32,366 nt of DNA from Acidimicrobiia bacterium (GTDB taxonomy: Bacteria > Actinomycetota > Acidimicrobiia > Spongiisociales > JAENVV01), in assembly GCA_029881355.1 (NCBI GenBank), contig JAOUMT010000007.1, positions 1-32,366 of the forward strand. Reading direction: 5' to 3'. Position numbers and translations under genes: made by a program. The first letter of the stretch is position 1, and each line of letters starts with the position of its first letter. Shown here one piece after another: positions 15,854 to 19,727 of the stretch. The notes under the pieces were generated by a model. It was not told the DNA's origin. It was given only the letters and a program-made list of their open reading frames with translations, and ran no database searches.

Positions 15854-15962
15854 GGGGTATGTATCGGCCAGGGGTTGGCGCTCATTGAATGTTTAGCCAG
15901 ATAAGTCAGGTGGAGCAGGTTCGGCCTTGACGAAAGCCCGAGACGTGGCATACTTCGCGGGT

Positions 15963-16043
15963 ACTTATCAAGAGCGGTGGAGGGACAGGCCCTTTGAAAC
16001 CGCGGCAACCAGTTCGGCTGGTGCCAATGCCTGATCGATGAGA
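15963..16043 (+). ncRNA. SAM-I (S-box) riboswitch aptamer
   Basis: CTTATCAAGAGCGGTGGAGGGACAGGCCCTTTGAAACCGCGGCAACCAG...CTGGTGCCAATGCCTGATCGATGAG matches the SAM-I core; P1 CTTATC (15964-15969) pairs with GATGAG (16037-16042, one G-U). Located upstream of metY-metX. Confidence 0.93.
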
Positions 16044-16108
16044 AGGGGTTAGCGAATGACCGATACCCGAAGTCCCTCCACGCCGAAGCTCTGTTGCTCC
16101 ATGCCGTG

Positions 16109-17521
<1,413 letters not shown>

Positions 17522-17531
17522 TCGCGGAACC

Positions 17532-17560
17532 AGGCGGGAGGCCGATCGGACCTCCCGCCT
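17532..17560 (+). terminator. Intercistronic hairpin between metY and metX
   Basis: AGGCGGGAGG-CCGATCGGA-CCTCCCGCCT, perfect 10-bp stem. Confidence 0.5.
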
Positions 17561-17575
17561 AGGCTGTTGTCTCTC

Positions 17576-18724
17576 ATGATCGATCCAGATACGCTCCCGA
17601 GCTCTACGGAGTTCTACGACCTCCCACCCGAGCTGCTGCCGTACAAGTTGCAGAACGGCGAAACGCTGCCGGAGGTTCGACTTGCGTACCAAACGTATGG
17701 GACACTCAACGCAGATCGATCCAACGTAATACTGCTCTTCCACGCCCTGACCGGATCGCAGAATCCGTCCGGTATCAACCCGTCCGTTCCTGGAGTAGAG
17801 CTATGGAGCGACGAATGCCAGGTGGGTTGGTGGCCGGGCTGGATGGGACCGGGTCGCACGATCGACACCGACCGGTTCATGGTTGTCTGCGTCAACTACC
17901 TCGGGGGTTGCTATGGCTCAACCGGTCCAACTTCGATCAACCCTGCGACGGGACTGCCGTACGGTGGTGGCTTTCCCGAGGTGACGTTTTCGGACATAGT
18001 CGACGTCCAGATGCTGTTGCTTGACCACCTCGGGATCGAGAAACTCCACACGGTGATCGGGCCTTCGGTCGGTGGAATGATGTGCGTGAGCCTGGCGACG
18101 CGCTACCCGGACCGGGTCGAGCGCGTAGTGCCGGTGGCCTCGGGCTTGTTCACTTCCTCCCTGCAGTTTCTCTACAACTTCGAGCAAACCAACGCCATTT
18201 TGAACGATCCGAATTTCAACGGGGGCGACTATTACGGGCGGCCCAAACCCGACCAGGGCCTGGCTCTGGCGAGAATGATCGGCCATAAAACTTTTGTGTC
18301 GCTTGAGGCGATGGAGTTTCGTGCTCGGGGCGAGGTCAACGAGGGCACCGGCCCTGCGGGGTATCAGATCCGTTCGCCGCTGGAGTCGTACATGTGGCAC
18401 CAGGGTCAGAAGTTTCTGGAAAGATTCGATGCCAATACCTACATTCGGCTGATGACTGCCTGGCAGCACTTTGATCTGCTCGAAGAAGCCGGCGCATCAG
18501 ATATGACAACCTTGCTCAAACGATCCCGACCCCACCGCTATCTGCTCTTCACGATTGATTCCGACGTTTGTTACTACCCGGAGGACCAGGCCGTCATGCT
18601 CGATGCGCTACGTGAAGCCGGAGTCCCCGCTCGTCGAATCATCGTTTCGTCCCATAAAGGTCACGACTCGTTTTTGCTCGAGCCCGAACTGTATGCAGAC
18701 GTGCTCCTTGATTTCCTTGCCTAG
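17576..18724 (+). CDS. metX: Homoserine O-acyltransferase (MetX family)
   Basis: 'LPYKLQNGETLPEVRLAYQTYGTLNADRSNVILLFHALTGS', nucleophile region 'VIGPSVGGMMCVSLATRYPDRV', C-terminal 'SHKGHDSFLLE'. Start could alternatively be TTG 17567. Confidence 0.92.
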   Translation: MIDPDTLPSSTEFYDLPPELLPYKLQNGETLPEVRLAYQTYGTLNADRSNVILLFHALTGSQNPSGINPSVPGVELWSDECQVGWWPGWMGPGRTIDTDRFMVVCVNYLGGCYGSTGPTSINPATGLPYGGGFPEVTFSDIVDVQMLLLDHLGIEKLHTVIGPSVGGMMCVSLATRYPDRVERVVPVASGLFTSSLQFLYNFEQTNAILNDPNFNGGDYYGRPKPDQGLALARMIGHKTFVSLEAMEFRARGEVNEGTGPAGYQIRSPLESYMWHQGQKFLERFDANTYIRLMTAWQHFDLLEEAGASDMTTLLKRSRPHRYLLFTIDSDVCYYPEDQAVMLDALREAGVPARRIIVSSHKGHDSFLLEPELYADVLLDFLA

Positions 18725-18727
18725 CAG

Positions 18728-18753
18728 TCGGGCGCCCAGTAACGGGCGCCCGA
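18728..18753. terminator. Hairpin between convergent metX and downstream minus-strand gene
   Basis: TCGGGCGCCC-AGTAAC-GGGCGCCCGA, perfect 10-bp stem. Confidence 0.65.
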
Positions 18754-18767
18754 CCTGGTCGTAGCTC

Positions 18768-19196
18768 CTAGTTGGAAGGGCCGACATTGGCCGCACCAGG
18801 GCATGGGCAGCTCTGATACGGCGTGAACGTTCCCGTTGCTCCAACGGCGGACGAATCGACTTCGTATTCAGGCATCCACCAAGCTGGTGGATCCGGGTCG
18901 AGATTGGCGTCTTCTCCAACGAATCGCTCAACGACGGTGACCGGACCGCCAGTGGTCGCGGCGACGGCCGGGTTGGCCGGTGTGTCCACCTCATACTCCG
19001 GGAGCATTTCATAGACAGTGGCTGGCTCGTCGACGACCGGCGTTGGATCCTGTGCGTTTATGACCAACAGGACGATTGCGCCAATTGCTGCCGCCAACAC
19101 CATTACGGCCCAGAATCCTCGTTGGACCCAAAACGGACTGGCTTGACGCCCCTCTGGTGGTTGTACAACTTCGGGTTGCCTATCGAGAAGGACCAT
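18768..19196 (-). CDS. Hypothetical single-TM protein
   Basis: 142 aa; TM 'FWAVMVLAAAIGAIVLLVINA'; duplicated 'PEYEVD' motifs. Confidence 0.6.
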   Translation of the reverse strand: MVLLDRQPEVVQPPEGRQASPFWVQRGFWAVMVLAAAIGAIVLLVINAQDPTPVVDEPATVYEMLPEYEVDTPANPAVAATTGGPVTVVERFVGEDANLDPDPPAWWMPEYEVDSSAVGATGTFTPYQSCPCPGAANVGPSN

Positions 19197-19356
19197 GCTG
19201 CGTCTCCTTCTGCAAGCTGAGGAGAGCTAGGCACCTTTACGAGAACCCGGGACTCCCCAGCGTCCTCATGAGTAGTAATCGTCCCGCTTTCGGGGCGACC
19301 CGGCTAGTGACGATTTACTCTTTGGCTCGCCTGGCAAGGCGCGAATTTGGCGACGA

Positions 19357-19415
19357 GCGTATCTCTCGCACTACGTGCGGAGATTGCGTATCTCTCGCAC
19401 TACGTGCGGAGATAC
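19357..19415. repeat. Tandem duplication of a hairpin-forming 28-nt unit
   Basis: GCGTATCTCTCGCACTACGTGCGGAGAT at 19357-19384 and identically at 19386-19413; each contains ATCTC-T-CGCAC-TAC-GTGCG-GAGAT. Confidence 0.9.
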
Positions 19416-19630
19416 GGGGCGATATCGGCTTCGTAATCGGCGTGGCGATCCGTTTCCAGTTTCGAATACACCAACTCGCCGTCGACTTTGACCTCAAACA
19501 GGCCACCACGTGACGGTATCAAGTGGATGTCATACTGTTGCCCGAACTCTTCGAAGATTGCCTCGACCATGCTCACGGCACGGGGGGTGTAGTTTCAGGC
19601 CCGGCAGAACTCAATGCTGATGGGAGTCAT
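19400..19630 (-). CDS. SelW/Rdx-family (SelT/SelW/SelH) selenoprotein, UGA(Sec) codon at 19595-19597
   Basis: Minus-strand reading from ATG at 19630 with UGA read as Sec: MTPISIEFCRAUNYTPRAVSMVEAIFEEFGQQYDIHLIPSRGGLFEVKVDGELVYSKLETDRHADYEADIAPYLRT*. Matches the Rdx pattern (YC..C/U NY.PRA ... PS.GG.FEV.VDG.LV.SK) with UGA at the second redox position; terminates with TAG at 19400-19402. Confidence 0.88.
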
Positions 19631-19727
19631 GTTTCGAGATGATAACGACGCGTGGAACCGTTGGTGAAATTCGCATGGACCGTCCCCATAGGCGAAATGC
19701 ACTCTCCACGGTGGACGTGTCCGTCGG

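Follow-up and report, generated by a model that had tools for sequence, protein, structure and literature searches.

The window, by which we mean the whole 32,366-nt stretch of DNA from an uncultured Acidimicrobiia bacterium that was analysed, carries on its minus strand a short frame with one internal TGA. As claimed in the initial annotation, this frame opens with ATG at 19630, runs into TGA at 19597-19595 (codon 12) and closes with TAG at 19402-19400, and every letter of the read-through peptide proposed there recurs in our own translation. The gene is absent from the mechanical ORF list; at this place the list holds only an out-of-frame ORF, as had also been pointed out (plus strand, 19076-19513, antisense to selW). 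selW of this Acidimicrobiia bacterium is a gene overlooked by standard gene calling. Other frames of the window with one TGA near a Cys codon were, judged by eye, antisense or frame-end cases only. The features referred to below are:

19400-19630, minus strand: SelW-like gene (Rdx family), read-through translation of 76 residues, predicted Sec at codon 12, TAG stop
19595-19597, minus strand: UGA as putative Sec codon, codon 12, second redox position of C9-R-A-U12
19567-19583, minus strand: candidate bSECIS hairpin CCGUGC(CGUGA)GCAUGG, nt 12-28 after the UGA, loop motif N-G-U
19639-19644, minus strand: inferred -10 element TATCAT, 8 nt before the selW ATG
15962-16044, plus strand: SAM riboswitch RF00162, 74.2 bits, upstream of the Cys/Met-metabolism PLP enzyme
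16208-17521: Cys/Met-metabolism PLP enzyme, downstream of the SAM riboswitch
17567-18724: alpha/beta hydrolase resembling homoserine O-acetyltransferase, after the PLP enzyme
Same genome (G000), contig C28, 2954-3883, minus strand: selD (locus L097), 392 bits, in-frame UGA in the active-site motif GAG-U-ACK

To which family does the product belong? It matches the Pfam Rdx family (PF10262) with 64.5 bits (E 1e-17; curated cut-off 22.6), which bears out the assignment first made, and TIGR02174 (SelT/SelW/SelH) with 56.5 bits (cut-off 34.2). Against NF041051 SelTWH_Campy it scores 72.7 bits and does not reach the equivalog cut-off of 88; the product is related to Campylobacter SelW and lies outside that equivalog. 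A sequence search of the PDB retrieved SelW-related chains, mouse SelW among them (E 4e-5). Both redox columns of C9-R-A-U12 are invariant Cys/Sec in 27 homologues. The AlphaFold2 model, computed with 27 homologues and with Cys in place of Sec, has a mean pLDDT of 96.7; a predicted strand (residues 2-9), closed by the C-x-x-U motif, is followed by a helix (15-29), and the top PDB matches of the model in Foldseek are all SelW-related, with TM-scores of up to 0.82. We are confident in the prediction that the product adopts the thioredoxin-like SelW fold.

Genes and elements around selW

In the arrangement seen in the window selW has no conserved operon partner, and its neighbours vary between families; among relatives, the neighbour met most often is an amidohydrolase-like gene on the opposite strand, 3' of selW. 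In two sister genomes (G004 and G002) selW is flanked by a divergent crotonase-like gene whose start lies ~10 nt away. Only a first-codon remnant of it, MITTRGTVGEIRMDRP, stands in the window at ~19640-19710 (plus strand), and the gene has therefore been lost.

On the other side, a 29-bp unit with the palindromic core ATCTCCGCACGTAGTGCGAGAGATACGC is tandemly duplicated at 19357-19412 (minus strand), its first copy sharing bases with the stop codon of selW; no other copy was found in this genome, and the unit is absent from sister genome G004. Just downstream of selW, a leader of ~120 nt (19197-19325, minus strand) precedes the ORF at 19196-18768 (minus strand), and its core, GAGGACGCTGGGGA ... 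TCTCCTCAGC ... GAAGGAGAC-ATG, is near-invariant. The leader is conserved in four of five genus members and restricted to the genus, as is the small protein encoded by the ORF, which probably has a transmembrane segment and matches nothing in Pfam. In this leader, GCTGGGGAG could be a rival of the Shine-Dalgarno sequence GAAGGAG for CTCCTC, a riboswitch-like layout. Searched with Rfam at a lax threshold, the surroundings of selW gave nothing, and the leader found no match even at E 5. Further away, the SAM riboswitch, the PLP enzyme and the alpha/beta hydrolase together look like a methionine operon.

Start of the selW message

How would selW be expressed? No Shine-Dalgarno sequence precedes the ATG at 19630, and the TATCAT element stands immediately upstream. 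The same arrangement, TANNNT 6-10 nt before the selW start and no Shine-Dalgarno sequence, is found in 24 of the 29 relatives of the order; counted at 4-9 nt before the start, TANNNT occurs in 23 of 29, where shuffles would lead one to expect 1.1. In published work, leaderless genes, which are common in Actinobacteria, are marked by TANNNT ~12 bp before the start (PMC3160421). Because of this known mark, and because TANNNT also stands at similar spacing before many other genes of the window, the selW mRNA is probably leaderless or near-leaderless, which would be nothing unusual for the lineage. We lean towards the wider proposal that throughout the order selW is decoded from leaderless mRNAs, which would start at a 5' terminal AUG, carry the UGA ~30-36 nt from the 5' end and hold the bSECIS within the first ~65 nt. 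If the window's selW mRNA is leaderless, its Sec codon would consequently lie ~33 nt from the 5' end. A literature search brought up no account of Sec being inserted on a leaderless mRNA, and selW would offer a compact system for asking whether Sec insertion works near the 5' end of such messages.

A selenoprotein translated from a conventional leader, with its start upstream or downstream of 19630, would differ from this proposal in the expression step only. It draws support from the remaining five order relatives, in which a Shine-Dalgarno sequence is present and TANNNT lies 17-30 nt upstream. We nevertheless hold it to be unlikely here, given that 19630 has TATCAT at 8 nt and no Shine-Dalgarno sequence, that the spacing from TANNNT to ATG is conserved in the other relatives, and that the divergent crotonase-like gene of the sister species, starting ~10 nt upstream of selW, leaves no space there for a non-overlapping leader.

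The in-frame UGA, its hairpin and the Sec machinery

A selW homologue is present in 35 of the 59 relative genomes. Wherever the homologue extends to the Sec site, a single in-frame stop interrupts it, and this stop is TGA; the sole exception, in G001, breaks off at the edge of its contig before the site. A survey of 84,980 species genomes retrieved 50 selW loci from records of Acidimicrobiia, Chloroflexota, Planctomycetota, Gemmatimonadota, Acidobacteriota, and proteobacterial and Desulfobacterota-type bacteria, the closest named record being LH_M20, a MAG of Acidimicrobiia. At codon 12 of the alignment, 79 loci show TGA in 77, TGT in one and TGC in one; two of the 79 are duplicates of genomes already counted, and without them TGA stands in 75 of 77. 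In a haloarchaeal homologue the aligned residue is Cys (CVPC). The homologues spanning the UGA, which the initial annotation had named as a check on its proposal, thus have either Sec (TGA) or Cys aligned at the site.

The machinery that it had proposed to look for was likewise found complete, with selA, selB, selC (tRNA-Sec) and selD in the same genome. The tRNA-Sec gene (contig C63) scores 76.3 bits, against a gathering score of 47, and is called tRNA-SeC(tca) by ARAGORN; extra matches of 30-47 bits stay below that score and probably represent other tRNAs. On contig C246, selA (16472-17776, 403 bits) adjoins selB (17797-19599, 334 bits). Since selD has a UGA inside its active site, this genome has at least one selenoprotein gene besides selW; among the SelD homologues of the order nearly all have one TGA, and a few (G013, G015, G028, G042) have none. 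tRNA-Sec was detected in 47 of 59 relatives, and selA and selD in nearly all. Three near-complete genomes of one family (G033, G040, G056) lack selA, tRNA-Sec, selB and selD above cut-off, and selW as well; with only these three machinery-free near-complete genomes, the co-occurrence of selW and machinery points the expected way, at a Fisher p of 0.07. One genome of 69% completeness (G005) has a weak TGA-containing homologue and neither selA nor tRNA-Sec.

Might the UGA be read as another amino acid, by stop-to-Trp recoding or near-cognate suppression, or act as a plain terminator? UGA reassignment does occur in some bacterial lineages. We consider such a reading highly improbable here, where TGA is the ordinary stop of many genes of the window, where tRNA-Sec, SelA, SelB and SelD are encoded in the genome, and where the site is aligned with a redox Cys, not with Trp. 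The internal UGA of acidimicrobial SelW is almost certainly decoded as selenocysteine, to judge from its conservation and from the genes that accompany it.

The bSECIS stem, of 6 bp, is formed by nt 12-17 and nt 23-28 after the UGA and encloses a 5-nt loop (nt 18-22). Its sequence is as first proposed, and so is the G in the loop, but this G lies at nt 19 after the UGA and not at "about 18". The published geometry of bacterial SECIS elements, to which the hairpin had been likened, comprises a stem of 4-16 bp, a loop of 3-9 nt with G within its first two positions, a UGA-to-loop distance of 16-37 nt and an MFE of at most -7.5 kcal/mol (PMC13188914). The likeness holds: the loop has 5 nt, the stem 6 bp, G stands at loop position 2, and 17 nt separate the UGA from the loop; the MFE of the 53-nt region, a second hairpin included, is -13 kcal/mol. 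An RNA fold of the stretch past the UGA had been suggested as a check; run on these 53 nt, it recovered the hairpin, at an energy that does not stand out (z = -1.13; 28 of 200 shuffled sequences do as well).

In each of the 29 order relatives the stem is complete, with its six pairs. Pair 12-28 changes from C-G to U-A in three of them, and pair 15-25 from U-A to C-G in three others; in the latter swap a synonymous switch of the Arg codon (CGU to CGC) goes together with the replacement of Met by Ala (AUG to GCG), a coupling that protein constraint alone would not predict. Among 16 distinct rows, 100% of the bSECIS cells are paired and two pairs have changed on both sides. None of the sliding controls on these rows comes near this in cells paired, and the +3 slide ties the covariation score. 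Because only 3 cells carry double changes and that slide does equally well on covariation, the case for the bSECIS rests on its pairing and on the family-wide UGA; what lifts it above chance is this conserved pairing together with the aligned TGA, not the folding energy. In other phyla the hairpin appears, by eye, displaced by a few bases.

A dead frame, in which a Cys codon (TGC or TGT) was mutated to or miscalled as TGA, is refuted by the conservation of TGA in independent genomes: the genome is a draft metagenome-assembled one and two homologues do have Cys at the Sec site, but TGA recurs across many phyla and is retained in independent assemblies of sister species, so that a miscalled Cys codon, the sequencing error against which the initial annotation had asked for a test, is excluded, while frame and protein sequence past the UGA are conserved and the bSECIS hairpin covaries. 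We put at about 0.96 the probability that the locus encodes a true SelW-like selenoprotein of the Rdx family in an acidimicrobial (Acidimicrobiia) bacterium, as its sequence and those of its relatives indicate.

Proposed decoding and known SelW systems

In the mechanism that we propose for this selenoprotein gene, transcription would probably start at or beside the selW ATG. SelB, present in the sequence together with the rest of the machinery, would bring Sec-tRNA(UCA) to the UGA of codon 12, drawn there by the bSECIS hairpin, whose stem begins 12 nt past the UGA. The product is predicted to be a small protein of thioredoxin-like fold that carries Cys9 and Sec12 in the C-x-x-U turn following strand 1, and, as its family suggests, would most likely act as a selenol/thiol oxidoreductase through a selenenylsulfide intermediate.

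Bacterial SelW-like selenoproteins have been known since 2005, and the passages of the marine reports concerned with them describe a family of top abundance in Sargasso Sea data (PMC1088965) and the most abundant one in GOS data, with 427 Sec against 56 Cys forms (PMC2398784); a scarcity of Cys homologues of the family in Sec-using bacteria had already been described (PMC1794560). As described in those passages, the marine proteins resemble the acidimicrobial one in the C-x-x-U motif, in a bacterial SECIS directly after the UGA, in being small Rdx proteins and in a Sec form that is commoner than the Cys form. Acidimicrobial selW differs in its probably leaderless mRNA, and Acidimicrobiia do not figure in the same marine passages. 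Nor was a dedicated report of selenoproteins in Acidimicrobiia or Acidimicrobiales found in the open literature searched. The SelW of Campylobacter jejuni (CJnc60) is likewise a selenoprotein of SelW size overlooked by annotation, for which Ribo-seq and mass spectrometry have confirmed Sec at the UGA (PMC11955535). Unlike acidimicrobial selW, known here from sequence alone, it is epsilonproteobacterial.

Two homologues from other phyla, at ~45-48% identity, have the UGA at the same place. The Rdx protein of Thermomicrobium roseum (NC_011961, TRD_RS11105) reads CTS-UGA-GY, and its RefSeq CDS begins only after the UGA. The Cytobacillus spongiae homologue reads CMR-UGA-NY and lies beside selD, with no gene in the PLSDB table; as that gene table is incomplete, this annotation case is the weaker one. 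The SECIS of mouse selenoprotein W, a eukaryotic protein, sits in the 3' UTR. In fold the mouse protein (PDB 2npb) belongs to the same family as the acidimicrobial product, with a TM of 0.73 by query length. With acidimicrobial selW, a redox gene dropped by standard callers is restored to the annotation, and Sec use in Acidimicrobiia is documented. The gene leaves knowledge of the SelW family unchanged and is an ordinary addition, of little surprise, to this long-known bacterial family.
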